32,084 bases of DNA from a bacterium (GTDB lineage: Bacteria; UBA10199; JACPAL01; GCA-016699445). The notes under the pieces are model-generated. The model worked only from the letters and a program-made list of their open reading frames with translations. It was not told the origin of the DNA and ran no database searches. Positions 18,232-24,394 of this stretch are shown here, one piece after another. The position numbers and the translations under genes are program-made. The DNA is taken from assembly GCA_035454885.1 (NCBI GenBank), contig DATIGE010000060.1, positions 1-32,084 of the forward strand, given 5' to 3'. Within the stretch, counting starts at the first letter, position 1. Every line of letters starts with the position of its first letter.

Positions 18232-18265
18232 CTTAACAAAAACTTAACTCCCCTCAGGGTAGACT
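18232..18265 (+). promoter_or_regulatory. CTTAAC 11-bp direct repeat before kimA copy 1
   Basis: CTTAAC occurs at 18232-18237 and 18243-18248, exactly 11 bases apart, with TAGACT (18260-18265) eleven bases further as a -10 candidate. The geometry is that of an OmpR/PhoB-family activator site, but the hexamer differs from the TGTCAC type at the phosphate genes. KdpE from this locus is a plausible binder. A short GTCCT/AGGAC hairpin follows before the start codon. Confidence 0.5.
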
Positions 18266-18292
18266 GTCCTTTATAGGACGCCACCCTCGACC

Positions 18293-20338
18293 ATGGGACG
18301 CCTCCGACGCATACTTCTGGGACCGGCACGGGACCTCAACGACCCTTCGTTGAGTCATAAGATCTCGCTGGCCGCCTTCCTCGCCTGGGTGGGCCTGGGC
18401 TGCGACGGCCTTTCCTCGTCCGCCTACGGTCCCGAAGAGGCCTTCCGCGCCCTGGGCGCCCATTCGCACCTCGCCATCCTCCTGGTCGTGATGACGGCGG
18501 TCACGATCTTCGTGATCTCAATTTCCTACTCCACCCTGATCCAATATTTTCCGGGCGGCGGCGGCGGTTATCTGGTCGCCACGAAGCTTTTGGGCGAAAA
18601 GGCGGGCGTCGTTTCGGGTTGCGCGCTTCTGGTCGACTATTTCCTGACGATCTCCGTTTCCGTCGCGGCCGGTTGCGACGCCCTCTGGTCCTTTTTTCCG
18701 GCGGGGTGGGGCGAATTCAAGCTCATGGCCGAAATGGCGGCCCTGGTCCTCCTCGTGATCATGAATTTGAGGGGTGTTCGCGAATCCGTGACGGTGGTCG
18801 CGCCGATTTTTATCCTCTTTGTCGTCATGCATGTCTTCTTGATCCTCTACGCAATCGGCGGCCATCTCACCGCTCTGCCCGCGGTTTTCCAGGATGCCGC
18901 CTCCGATCTTCACGAATCGGTCTCGTCGTTGGGCTTCCTTCCGGTCCTTCTCGTGCTCCTCCGCGCCTATTCGATGGGCGGCGGCACCTACACCGGCATC
19001 GAGGCGGTCTCGAACGGAGTCGCGACCCTCCGCGAGCCGCGCGTTCAGACCGGCAAGAAGACGATGTTTCTGATGGCCGCTTCGCTCGCCTTCACGGCGG
19101 GAGGCATCCTGTTCGCCTATCTGTTGACCAACTCAACGCCGGCCGAGGGCAAGACCATGAATGCCGTGATGGTCGGAAATCTCTTCGGACATTGGACCTT
19201 GGGCGGTTTCGGCATCGGCAAGGCGCTGGTGATCGTCACCCTCATGTCGGAGGCGGCCCTCCTCTTCATGGCGGCTCAGACCGGCTTTCTGGACGGCCCG
19301 CGCGTTTTGGCCAACATGGCTCTCGACAACTGGGTTCCGCGCCATTTCGCCCAGCTCTCGGACCGCCTGGTGACCAAGAACGGCGTCTATCTGATGGGCG
19401 CGGCGGCGGCGGCGACCCTCCTTTACACGAAGGGTCACATCACCACGCTGGTCGTCATGTATTCCATCAACGTCTTCATCACCTTCGTCCTGAGCCAGTT
19501 GGGCATGGCCGTGCATTGGATCCAGGAGAGACGCATCGAGCTCAAATGGAAGAAACAGCTCGCGGTCAACGGCGTCGGTCTCGTGATGTGCCTATGCATC
19601 CTGGGCGTCACGCTCTATGAAAAATTCGCCGAAGGCGGGTGGATGACGGCGGTCATCACCTGCACGATCATCGCCCTCTGCTTCCTGATCCGGCGTCACT
19701 ACCGGGCCGTGCGCGAAAACCTGAGGCGCCTGGACGACTTGTTGACGACGGTGCCGATCGTTCCACACGTCGATGGGGGCCATCGGGGGAGAGCAGGATC
19801 TCCCCCGATTCAAGCGAGCGACGGGCTTAGCCCGCGCGAGCGAATCGACAAGAACGCACCGACCGCGGCCGTGATGGTCGGGGGATTCTCGGGTTTCGGT
19901 CTCCACCAGATCATGTCGATCCAGATGCAGTTTCCTGACTATTTTCGGAATTTCATCTTCATCTCCGTGGGTGTCCTCGATTCGGGCACCTTCAAGGGGG
20001 CCGAGGGGGTGAAAAAGACGGAGGAGGAGACGAGGTCCCATCTGGAGCAATACGTCGCCTGGTGCCGTCAAAACGGCTGGGCTGCGGATTACCGGATGGC
20101 GGTCGACACAGAAACCGTCAACGCCCTGGAGAAACTCTGCCGTCAGGTCAAGGAGGAGTTTCCGCGGACAACCTTCTTCTCAGGAAAACTCATCTTCCAG
20201 AATGAGAAGTATTTTCAGCGCTTCCTCCACTATGAGACCGCGTTCTCGATCCAGCGCCGCCTCCAGTTCGCGGGGCTTCCCGTGATCGTCCTGCCGATCC
20301 GGGTGCTGGACGCCCCGGCCACAGCGACGAGCACCTGA
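18293..20338 (+). CDS. KimA-type K+ transporter, copy 1
   Basis: This 681-residue protein is an APC-superfamily permease most like B. subtilis KimA (YdaO) in the KUP branch. It has about twelve membrane segments up to roughly residue 465 and then a cytoplasmic alpha/beta domain resembling a universal stress protein. KimA-type motifs are CDGLSSSAYGPEE with D38, YFPGGGGGYLVATKLLGEK, DYFLTISVSVAAGCDAL, MNLRGVRES, and GGTYTGIEAVSNGV with the conserved Thr and Glu. It should import K+ with protons. The linker near residues 497-520 contains a palindromic insertion absent from copy 2. The start ATG 18293 lacks a strong ribosome binding site but matches the copy 2 start almost base for base. Copy 2 is about three-quarters identical by eye. 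Confidence 0.87.
   Translation: MGRLRRILLGPARDLNDPSLSHKISLAAFLAWVGLGCDGLSSSAYGPEEAFRALGAHSHLAILLVVMTAVTIFVISISYSTLIQYFPGGGGGYLVATKLLGEKAGVVSGCALLVDYFLTISVSVAAGCDALWSFFPAGWGEFKLMAEMAALVLLVIMNLRGVRESVTVVAPIFILFVVMHVFLILYAIGGHLTALPAVFQDAASDLHESVSSLGFLPVLLVLLRAYSMGGGTYTGIEAVSNGVATLREPRVQTGKKTMFLMAASLAFTAGGILFAYLLTNSTPAEGKTMNAVMVGNLFGHWTLGGFGIGKALVIVTLMSEAALLFMAAQTGFLDGPRVLANMALDNWVPRHFAQLSDRLVTKNGVYLMGAAAAATLLYTKGHITTLVVMYSINVFITFVLSQLGMAVHWIQERRIELKWKKQLAVNGVGLVMCLCILGVTLYEKFAEGGWMTAVITCTIIALCFLIRRHYRAVRENLRRLDDLLTTVPIVPHVDGGHRGRAGSPPIQASDGLSPRERIDKNAPTAAVMVGGFSGFGLHQIMSIQMQFPDYFRNFIFISVGVLDSGTFKGAEGVKKTEEETRSHLEQYVAWCRQNGWAADYRMAVDTETVNALEKLCRQVKEEFPRTTFFSGKLIFQNEKYFQRFLHYETAFSIQRRLQFAGLPVIVLPIRVLDAPATATST
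19782..19847. repeat. In-frame palindromic insertion in kimA copy 1
   Basis: The first hairpin has perfect 11-base arms at 19782-19792 (ATCGGGGGAGA) and 19799-19809, with a six-base loop. The next sequence forms a second imperfect hairpin from CGATTC at 19806 to GAATCG at 19847, whose core CGGGC-TTA-GCCCG is at 19822-19834. It encodes residues in the linker between membrane and cytoplasmic domains. Copy 2 has a linker about 13 residues shorter with no such structure. Confidence 0.65.
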
Positions 20339-20376: not shown

Positions 20377-20414
20377 CTTAACCCCTTTTTCATTCCGAAG
20401 GACCCCTTCTTAAC
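20377..20414 (+). promoter_or_regulatory. CTTAAC motifs before small ORF and kimA copy 2
   Basis: CTTAAC at 20377-20382 is followed 11 bases later by TTTCAT (20388), and another CTTAAC is at 20409-20414, 32 bases from the first. The shared hexamer with the region before copy 1 suggests common regulation and a second promoter, but the spacing is not a clean 11-bp lattice. Confidence 0.3.
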
Positions 20415-20463
20415 AGGAAAGCGGCCGGGTGCGCCGTTATCCTTCGAGTAGATCGGAGGCGTT

Positions 20464-20628
20464 ATGCGCAAACCATTCCTCATCGCAGTTCCGCTGCAGC
20501 TCCTGGGAGGCATCCATTCCGTCAAGGAGACCCTCTGCATCAACGAATGGACCCTGGCCCTTGCGCTATTTTCGGCCTTCTTCCTGGGCTGGGTCACGGT
20601 CAGGATCGCGGATCGGTATTTCAACTGA
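20464..20628 (+). CDS. 54-residue membrane peptide coupled to kimA copy 2
   Basis: This small protein begins MRKPFLIAVPLQLLGG and has one clear membrane segment near residues 31-47 (WTLALALFSAFFLGWVTV), ending RIADRYFN. GGAGG lies at 20455-20459, four bases before the ATG. Its TGA stop shares the final A with the ATG of the next transporter (TGATG), a reinitiation arrangement. I do not recognise a family. Position and size recall KdpF, the small peptide of the Kdp complex, but there is no sequence match I can claim. It may be a small subunit or regulator of the second KimA. Confidence 0.7.
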   Translation: MRKPFLIAVPLQLLGGIHSVKETLCINEWTLALALFSAFFLGWVTVRIADRYFN

Positions 20629-22604
20629 TGGGACGGCTCCGACGCATTCTTCTGGGGCCGGCGAGAGACCTTCACGATCCCTCGCTGAGCCACAAACTTT
20701 CGCTGGCCGCCTTTTTGGCCTGGGTGGGCCTGGGCTGCGACGGCCTTTCTTCCTCGGCCTATGGACCGGAAGAGGCCTATAAGGCGCTGGGTCCGCACGG
20801 CCATTTAGCCATCATCCTGGTCGTCATGACCGCCACCACGATCTTCGTGATCTCAATCGCCTATTCCAACCTGATCCAGCACTTTCCCGGCGGCGGTGGC
20901 GGCTATCTGGTCGCGACAAAGCTATTGGGCGAAAAGGCCGGCGTTGTTTCGGGTTGCGCCCTGCTTGTCGACTACTTCCTGACCATCTCCGTTTCGATCG
21001 CTTCGGGCTGCGACGCCCTGTGGTCATTCTTGCCGGCCAGCTTCGGGCCCTACAAGCTCGCAGCCGAGGTCGCCGCGCTCATGGTTCTGGTCCTCATGAA
21101 CCTGCGCGGGATCAAGGAATCGGTCATGACGATCGCGCCGGTCTTCCTGCTCTTCGTCGTCACCCACGTCTTCCTCATCCTCTACGCCGTGGGCAGCCAT
21201 GCGACGGCCCTTCCTTCGCTCTTTCAGGGGGCCTCCGCCGATTTTCACGAATCGGTCAAGGCGTTCGGATTCCTCCCCATTGCCCTGATTTTATTGCGCG
21301 CCTACTCGATGGGCGGCGGTACCTATACCGGGATCGAGGCGGTTTCGAACGGAGTCGCGACCCTCCGCGAGCCCCGCGTCCAGACCGGAAAGAGGACGAT
21401 GTTTCTCATGGCCACTTCGCTCGCCTTCACGGCGGGCGGCATCCTCTTTGCTTATCTCCTGACCAACTCGGTTCCCGTCGCGGGGAAAACGATGAACGCC
21501 GTCCTCGCCGGAAATCTCTTTGGGCATTGGACTCTGGACGGTTTCGGCATCGGCCATGCGCTGGTCATCGTGACCCTCGTTGCGGAAGCGGCCCTCCTTT
21601 TCATGGCGGCTCAGACCGGCTTCATCGACGGTCCCCGCGTTCTGGCCAACATGGCCTTGGATTCATGGGTGCCTCGGCATTTCGCCCAGTTCTCGGACCG
21701 GCTCGTCACCAAAAACGGCATCTATTTGATGGGGGCGGCCGCGATCGGAACCTTGATCTACACGCGCGGCAACATCACGATGCTGGTCGTCATGTACTCC
21801 ATCAACGTCTTCATCACTTTTGTTCTGACGGAATTGGGCATGGCCGGCCATTGGATCGCGGAGAGGCTCAAAGAGCCGCGGTGGAAGAGCCAGCTGGCCA
21901 TTCACGGCACCGGTCTCGTCATGTGCCTCTGCATCTTAAGCGTCACCTTGTACGAAAAGTTCGCCGAAGGAGGGTGGATGACCTCCCTCATCACCAGCGC
22001 CGTGATTGCCCTCTGTTTTCTGACCCGCCGGCATTATCAATCCGTCCGGAGCAGCCTGAAACGACTTGATGACCTGGCGATCATTCCCATCGCCGCCTTT
22101 CAACCGAACGAACAGCCGACGGCGGATCCACCGGAGATCGACAAAACGGCCCCGACGGCGGGGGTGATGGTCGGTGGATTCTCAGGTTTCGGGATCCACC
22201 AGCTTCTTTCGATCCAGACTCAATTCCCGCGTTACTTCAAGAATTTCATCTTTCTCTCCGTGGGAGTCCTCGACTCCGGGAGTTTCAAGGGGGCCGACGG
22301 CGTCCTGAAAACCGAGGAAGAAACCAGAAATCATCTGGAAAAATACGTGGAGTGGTGCCGCGAAAACGGATGGCCCGCCGAGTACCGGATGGCCGTTGAT
22401 ACGGAGGCGGTCGGCGCACTTGAGGGCCTTTGCCGGAAGGTCAAGGAGGAGTTTCCGAACGTCACTTTCTTTGCCGGCCGGCTCATCTTTAAAAACGAGA
22501 AATATTATCACCGCTTTTTGCACTATGAGACGGCCTTCTCCATCCAGCGCCGGCTTCAATTCGCGGGGCTTTCGGTGACCGTATTGCCAATCCGGGTCGT
22601 TTGA
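20628..22604 (+). CDS. KimA-type K+ transporter, copy 2
   Basis: This 658-residue paralogue of the gene at 18293 keeps every KimA-type motif: CDGLSSSAYGPEE, FPGGGGGYLVATKLLGEK, DYFLTISVSIASGCDAL, and GGTYTGIEAVSNGV. The C-terminal cytoplasmic domain starts at about residue 510 (TAGVMVGGFSGFG) and is also well conserved. ATG 20628 gives the same N-terminus as copy 1 (MGRLRRILLGPARDL). A longer in-frame start at 20547 would lie inside the 54-residue ORF and is rejected. The 30-base gap to the KdpD-like kinase gene suggests a shared transcript. In B. subtilis the C-terminal domain binds c-di-AMP; whether it does here is unknown. Confidence 0.88.
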   Translation: MGRLRRILLGPARDLHDPSLSHKLSLAAFLAWVGLGCDGLSSSAYGPEEAYKALGPHGHLAIILVVMTATTIFVISIAYSNLIQHFPGGGGGYLVATKLLGEKAGVVSGCALLVDYFLTISVSIASGCDALWSFLPASFGPYKLAAEVAALMVLVLMNLRGIKESVMTIAPVFLLFVVTHVFLILYAVGSHATALPSLFQGASADFHESVKAFGFLPIALILLRAYSMGGGTYTGIEAVSNGVATLREPRVQTGKRTMFLMATSLAFTAGGILFAYLLTNSVPVAGKTMNAVLAGNLFGHWTLDGFGIGHALVIVTLVAEAALLFMAAQTGFIDGPRVLANMALDSWVPRHFAQFSDRLVTKNGIYLMGAAAIGTLIYTRGNITMLVVMYSINVFITFVLTELGMAGHWIAERLKEPRWKSQLAIHGTGLVMCLCILSVTLYEKFAEGGWMTSLITSAVIALCFLTRRHYQSVRSSLKRLDDLAIIPIAAFQPNEQPTADPPEIDKTAPTAGVMVGGFSGFGIHQLLSIQTQFPRYFKNFIFLSVGVLDSGSFKGADGVLKTEEETRNHLEKYVEWCRENGWPAEYRMAVDTEAVGALEGLCRKVKEEFPNVTFFAGRLIFKNEKYYHRFLHYETAFSIQRRLQFAGLSVTVLPIRVV

Positions 22605-22634: not shown

Positions 22635-23681
22635 ATGAAATCCTCGTACCGCTATCTACTTTCCGTTCTTTTGATCGCCGGCTGGACGGCGTTCGCCAAA
22701 CTGGTCTTCCCCCGCATCGAGATCGCCAATTTGGTCATGACCTATCTTCTGGCCAATGTCCTGATCGCGGTGCGGTACGGCCAGGGGCCTTCGGTCGTTT
22801 CGGCCGTTTTGAGCGTGGCCTTGTTTGACTTCTTCTTCGTTCCCCCCTATCTGACCTTCGTCGTTGCGGATGCGAAATATTCCGTAACCTTTCTGATTAT
22901 GCTGGGGGTGACCGTCCTGACCGGCCGCCTGATGGTTCAATTGAGGCGCAACGCGGAAAAGGCCAATCAGGCCCAGATCGCGGCGGAACGGGAGGCGATG
23001 ATGAGCTCCCTGCTCAGTTCCTTTTCCCACGACCTCCGGACGCCGTTGACGTCGATTTCCGGCGCGGCGGGCACTCTCCTGACCGAGGACCATAAGCTTT
23101 CCCCGGAGGACCGCCGCCGCCTCCTGGAATCGATCGACGACGAATCCGCCCATCTGAACCGCCTGGTGGAGAACATCCTGCAAATCACGAAGATCGAAGC
23201 GGGCCATATCAATATCAAAAAGGAATTGCAGTCGATCGAGGAGATCATCGGTAGCGCCTTGAATCGTCTTGATGCGCTTTTGAAGGACCGCAGGATCGCC
23301 ACGGAGATCCCCGACGACCTGCCGCTCGTGCCCATGGATGGTCTCCTGATCGAACAAGTCTTGATCAATCTCCTGGAGAACGCCTCGCGGTACACGGCCG
23401 CCGGCTCGCCCATCGACATCCGCGCCCGGAGAAACGGAGCCAAGGTGACGGTCGAGATCGCGGATCGCGGTCCGGGTGTGCCGGCGCCGGAGCAATCCCG
23501 GATTTTCGAGAAATTCTACCGAAGCGGCAAAAAGGACGTTTGGGGCAGCGGCCTTGGGCTCGCGATCTGCCAGGGCATTCTCAAGGCCCACCAGGGCGAG
23601 ATCGGCGTCAAGGACCGTGACGGCGGCGGAAGCTTGTTCTATTTTTCGTTGCCTCTCGAAAACGGAGGAAAGGCCGCATGA
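22635..23681 (+). CDS. Short KdpD-like sensor histidine kinase
   Basis: This 348-residue kinase begins with the DUF4118 membrane domain of KdpD (four segments, about residues 5-100, including [33 protein letters not shown]). A HisKA domain follows with phospho-acceptor H132 in [13 protein letters not shown], then an HATPase domain with N box [11 protein letters not shown]1 DRGPGVP and G2 [10 protein letters not shown]. Full KdpD is about 900 residues; the N-terminal KdpD and Usp domains are absent, and no trace of them lies upstream. The GTG/ATG choice is ATG 22635, without a clear ribosome binding site. Its stop overlaps the kdpE start (ATGA). It probably senses K+ or ionic strength through the membrane domain and controls the adjacent KimA genes. 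Confidence 0.87.
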
Positions 23682-24394
23682 CCACCACGAATCCATCGGT
23701 CCTGGTCGTCGAGGACGACTCGCAAATCCGGCAATTCCTGAAGGTCGGCCTCGAAAGCAACGGTTACGCCTACCTCGAATCCGTGCAGGGCAAGCAGGGC
23801 TTGTCCGAAGTGGCGACGCGCAATCCGGACCTCGTCGTCTTGGATTTGGGATTGCCCGACATGGACGGGATCGACTTTCTGAAAAACCTGCGCGAATGGT
23901 CGAAGGTGCCGGTGATCGTCCTGACCGCCCGCGGCAACGAGCAGGACAAGATCAACGCCCTGGACCTCGGCGCCGACGACTATCTCACCAAACCCTTCGG
24001 CGTCGGCGAGCTGCTCGCCCGCATCCGTGTCGCTTTGCGCCACGACGCCCAGAGGGCGAGCGGGGAGGACTTGCCGCTCTTCGAAAACGGAGCGCTTCGG
24101 ATCGATTTCGTGAAGCGCCAGGTCTTCGTCGGCGACCGCGAGGTCCACCTGACGCCGACGGAATACAAGATCCTCACGTTGCTCGCCCATCATGCCGGCA
24201 AGGTGCTGACCCAGCGCCAGATCCTGACGGAGGTGTGGGGGGCGGCTTACGCCGAGCGGGGGGACTATTTGCGCGTCCACATGCACCAGCTCCGGCACAA
24301 GATCGAGTCCACACCCGCGCGACCCAAGTGGCTCATCAACGAGCCGGGCGTCGGGTACCGGATGACCGTGGAGGAACGGCGAAAAGACGATTAG
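23678..24394 (+). CDS. kdpE: KdpE-type response regulator
   Basis: This 238-residue OmpR-family regulator has a receiver with D13/D14, phosphoacceptor D56 in [12 protein letters not shown], the switch threonine in VIVLTARG, and lysine in YLTKPF. A winged-helix DNA-binding domain follows ([27 protein letters not shown] and [14 protein letters not shown]), ending GVGYRM. The [11 protein letters not shown] and [13 protein letters not shown] wording is KdpE-like. The partner kinase gene overlaps by four bases. kdpFABC is absent; the likely targets are the two KimA genes. The 3' end overlaps the convergent mgsA stop by four bases. Confidence 0.9.

Follow-up and report, generated by a model that had tools for sequence, protein, structure and literature searches.

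KimA of Bacillus subtilis (PDB entries 6s3k, 8b70 and 8b71) is a KUP symporter whose K+-site and proton-site residues have been reported, and the portions of the structural report drawn on here describe a homodimer and mention no small subunit (PMC6994465). The literature searched yielded no description of a small membrane protein that partners KimA. The P-type pump KdpFABC includes such a component, KdpF (Pfam PF09604), a single-span membrane peptide of 28–30 residues whose gene adjoins that of the K+ importer. Directly before kdpF, most of the kdp operons seen in this work, from several phyla, carry an unnamed single-span ORF of 27–36 residues (loci L119, L138, L145 and L154, and about 30 further kdp loci). 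The products of these ORFs, referred to here as pre-KdpF peptides, follow the rough pattern MD..(F/Y)(I/L)..L.FF.LS.....C(D/E)RL. In C. acetobutylicum, small peptides are presumably encoded upstream of kdpA by orfZ and orfY.

The window analysed here (the whole 32,084-nucleotide stretch of DNA) contains two tandem kimA genes on the forward strand, kimA1 (18293–20338) and kimA2 (20628–22604), with a small ORF of the same strand (sORF, 20464–20628) in the 289-base gap between them. The sORF encodes a 54-residue small membrane protein, MRKPFLIAVPLQLLGGIHSVKETLCINEWTLALALFSAFFLGWVTVRIADRYFN, and its ATG is preceded at a distance of four bases by the Shine–Dalgarno (SD) sequence GGAGG (20455–20459). 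Its stop codon TGA (20626–20628) shares the A at 20628 with the ATG of kimA2, forming a TGATG junction (20626–20630) with an overlap of one base, and the 12 bases 5′ of the kimA2 ATG hold no SD sequence. These features agree with the original prediction, which had also described the two genes as translationally fused; the stop–start overlap bears out the arrangement, for which translationally coupled is the proper term.

The sORF is very probably a real, previously undescribed gene, because its combination of an SD sequence and a membrane segment is rare in shuffled sequence, its codon composition is that of a gene and its predicted helix is confident. Among 5,000 dinucleotide-shuffled versions of the gap, 8% contained an ORF of at least 40 residues ending no more than 10 nt from the ATG, 0.4% contained such an ORF with an SD-like motif, and 0.02% (1 of 5,000) contained one that had a membrane segment in addition; coupling by itself is thus unremarkable, whereas the full combination is rare. 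The GC contents at the three codon positions are 0.56/0.39/0.78, against 0.59/0.45/0.79 for the genes of the window. The codon score of the sORF was equalled by only 1.3% of out-of-frame 54-codon stretches (about 99% scored lower). In the training set for this score the ends of two gene intervals were misplaced, so that they contained 3 and 17 stops, an error that would dilute the signal rather than create it. The single membrane segment that had been predicted is modelled by AlphaFold, from a two-sequence alignment, as a single helix of residues 28–53 with a pLDDT of approximately 90 over most of its length; the N-terminal 27 residues are poorly defined, with a weakly hydrophobic stretch before the helix. 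Scans of the peptide against Pfam, NCBIfam and PHROGs gave no significant match, a tblastn search against plasmids gave none, and Rfam and tRNA scans across the window found nothing. A profile search of the PDB returned weak matches to photosystem I subunit XII (E-values of 0.4–0.6), which reflect membrane-helix similarity and were rejected as evidence of relationship.

The 658-residue product of kimA2 is, by its sequence, a genuine KimA/KUP homologue, as had been proposed: it matches PDB entry 6s3k with an E-value of 2e-55 and is identical in the alignment at D36, Y43, D117, T121, S125, T230, E233 and Y377, the residues of the K+ and H+ sites of B. subtilis KimA. Behind it follow, on the same strand and identified by profile matches, genes for a short KdpD-like histidine kinase (22635–23681), comprising DUF4118, HisKA and HATPase domains without the N-terminal sensor domain of KdpD, and for a KdpE-like response regulator (23678–24394) that overlaps the kinase gene. 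The three genes are thus closely spaced or overlapping. kimA1 is 79% identical to kimA2 and has no coupled sORF. In the tree the two copies are sisters, with weak support (84/71), and adjoin the single kimA genes of genomes G003 and G005; since the copies are nearest to each other, the duplication looks lineage-specific. Behind the G003 gene stand the same kinase and regulator genes as behind kimA2. The simplest history suggested by these comparisons is a tandem kimA duplication in the lineage of the window genome, with the sORF at the junction. The window genome holds a third, more distant KimA gene (G000:C65:37447-39420, locus L027; 51% identity) with CTTAAC upstream, where a coupled small ORF was looked for and none was seen. 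No kdpA was detected in this genome.

The sole credible relative of the sORF, among 46 genomes of the phylum and 385 genomes overall, is a 57-residue ORF of genome G003 (G003:C6:106522-106692). The two peptides are 30% identical from end to end (E-value of 7.5e-4) and share an ungapped core of 45 residues, LI.VP..L...I.S........EW...L....AF.LGW, so that they correspond in length, in architecture and in the positions of the LI.VP..L and EW...L....AF.LGW motifs. Their Smith–Waterman score of 73 was reached by none of 20,000 shuffles, region-wise shuffling included, and the G003 ORF is the top match to the sORF, itself excepted, among the 839 membrane ORFs in the loci compared. The significant end-to-end similarity places the sORF in one family with the G003 ORF, and these are its only two known members. 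Weak genome matches in G005, G006 and G086 were rejected as relatives; they lie out of frame or antisense inside other genes, or in unrelated contexts.

Like the sORF, the G003 ORF heads a K+-uptake operon and has the next gene immediately behind it. Unlike the sORF, it has a weaker SD sequence and precedes not kimA but a kdp operon, in the order 57-residue ORF, 152-residue ORF, KdpF, KdpA; the spacing of the genes suggests that both family members are co-transcribed with the genes behind them. The 152-residue ORF (L045:904-1362) has no Pfam match. Because the only relative heads a kdp operon, the family appears to go with K+-uptake operons rather than with kimA. The sORF is probably the gene of a single-span membrane protein of a rare, unnamed family whose two known genes stand first in K+-uptake operons, and its product would have an accessory or regulatory role rather than that of a KimA-specific structural subunit. 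The peptide looks like a helper tied to general K+ uptake and not like a dedicated part of KimA. It may adjust an importer or signal to the DUF4118 kinase of the neighbouring gene. The sORF would have been inserted between the kimA copies either in the course of their lineage-specific duplication or later, and its source may have been a kdp operon that the genome subsequently lost. A more speculative extension, which we regard as unlikely, is that the peptide is a portable modulator that serves either two unrelated importers, the KUP symporter KimA and the P-type pump KdpFABC, or a DUF4118 sensor kinase shared by the two regulatory systems; it would then have followed the active importer when kdp was lost.

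The sORF could instead be a leader ORF, with an inert peptide, that only delivers ribosomes through its strong SD sequence and the TGATG junction to kimA2, whose SD-less start sits directly at that junction. The upstream regions of the kimA genes bear on this. A putative promoter of the sORF–kimA2 unit, TTAACA (20410–20415) and TATCCT (20438–20443) separated by 22 nt on the forward strand (20410–20443), was read by eye and is tentative; a scan for the sigma-70 consensus found no match there. The sequence upstream of kimA1, TTAACT-N22-TATAGG (18244–18277), has the same spacing. Direct repeats of TTAAC with an 11-base period lie upstream of kimA1 (within 18233–18277 of the window) and of the G003 kimA gene (L005, reverse strand, around position 1445), and are a candidate site for an OmpR-family regulator (KdpE-like or PhoB/PhoP-like). 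By eye, TATAGG or TATAGA follows these repeats after 22 nt and lies 11–15 nt 5′ of the start codon, and neither gene is preceded by an SD sequence, an arrangement that would fit nearly leaderless messages controlled by an OmpR-type regulator. The missing SD sequence of kimA2 is therefore not in itself a sign of coupling. With an SD sequence before the sORF and none before kimA2, however, ribosomes that have finished the sORF probably restart at TGATG and account for most of the translation of kimA2: a nearly leaderless gene would fail at an internal position, and a kimA copy displaced behind another gene would need a new means of ribosome recruitment, which the sORF would supply. That the sORF is nothing but such a leader is nevertheless rather unlikely, as another operon, which lacks kimA, carries a homologue with a conserved peptide sequence, for which a pure leader would have no need, and the promoter boxes were read by eye. 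The sORF most likely functions also as a protein, given that conservation.

The original prediction saw in the sORF a stoichiometric partner of KimA, perhaps comparable to KdpF in the Kdp system, and proposed to look before kimA in related genomes for the same ORF, whose absence from close relatives was to count against this reading. The position and coupling of the sORF would fit a dedicated subunit of this kind, and other K+ importers have known small subunits, KdpF among them; a stop–start overlap alone, however, is not proof of stoichiometry. An equivalent ORF is absent 5′ of kimA1, absent before the closest kimA genes compared, those of G003 and G005 (77–78% identity), genomes that share the order but neither the family nor the genus of the window genome, and absent before 50 further kimA relatives of 37–67% identity, among which ORFs with a membrane segment, shorter than 160 residues and ending near the gene start were sought, a filter that an atypical partner may escape. 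One kimA gene has a stop–start junction with a 146-residue multi-span ORF (L063:4561-5001), which has no clear Pfam family and is unrelated to the sORF. As the ORF does not accompany the other kimA genes compared and the published KimA is homodimeric, these comparisons do not support a conserved KimA subunit, and with the only relative standing in a kdp operon we consider a dedicated subunit improbable. The analogy with KdpF likewise fails at the level of sequence. Both are small single-span membrane peptides encoded next to a K+ importer, but the sORF peptide is longer than the 28–30 residues of KdpF, matches neither the Pfam PF09604 nor the NCBIfam profile of KdpF, and is encoded before kimA2 rather than directly before kdpA. 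It is not a KdpF, because the operon of its G003 relative encodes a separate one (28 residues; PF09604, 41.4 bits).

A pre-KdpF peptide that moved from kdp to kimA would also be a small membrane peptide heading a K+-uptake operon, and by eye the sORF helix FFLGWVTVRIADRY resembles FFALSWALIRLCERL. On a profile built from 30 pre-KdpF peptides, however, on which members reach at least 23 bits and background at most 8.4 bits, the sORF scores 1.0 bit, a value equalled by 18% of shuffles (895 of 5,000), whereas nearly all members score 23–51 bits, new ones near kimA in Acidobacteria included; the C(D/E)RL ending is missing from the sORF, and such an origin is highly unlikely. Several kimA genes adjoin kdpA or a kdp operon (L070:5001-9109, L072:5001-9131, L058, L061 and L062), in deltaproteobacterial (Geobacter-like) and acidobacterial genomes, an adjacency that offers a possible route for the transfer of small genes between the two systems. 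That the sORF is a chance ORF, or overlaps a longer KimA2 that starts at an upstream ATG in the KimA2 frame (20547, with no stop in between), is scarcely credible in view of its codon usage, SD sequence and homologue, of the lack of an SD sequence before that ATG and of the start of both kimA1 and the G003 kimA gene at the MGRLRR position.

If the sORF peptide acts on K+ uptake generally, as we favour, two importers that work by different mechanisms would be connected through one small protein, and the family would offer a handle on K+ sensing by short DUF4118-type KdpD kinases. If the sORF is only a translational coupler, the locus would show how a nearly leaderless gene stays expressed after tandem duplication.
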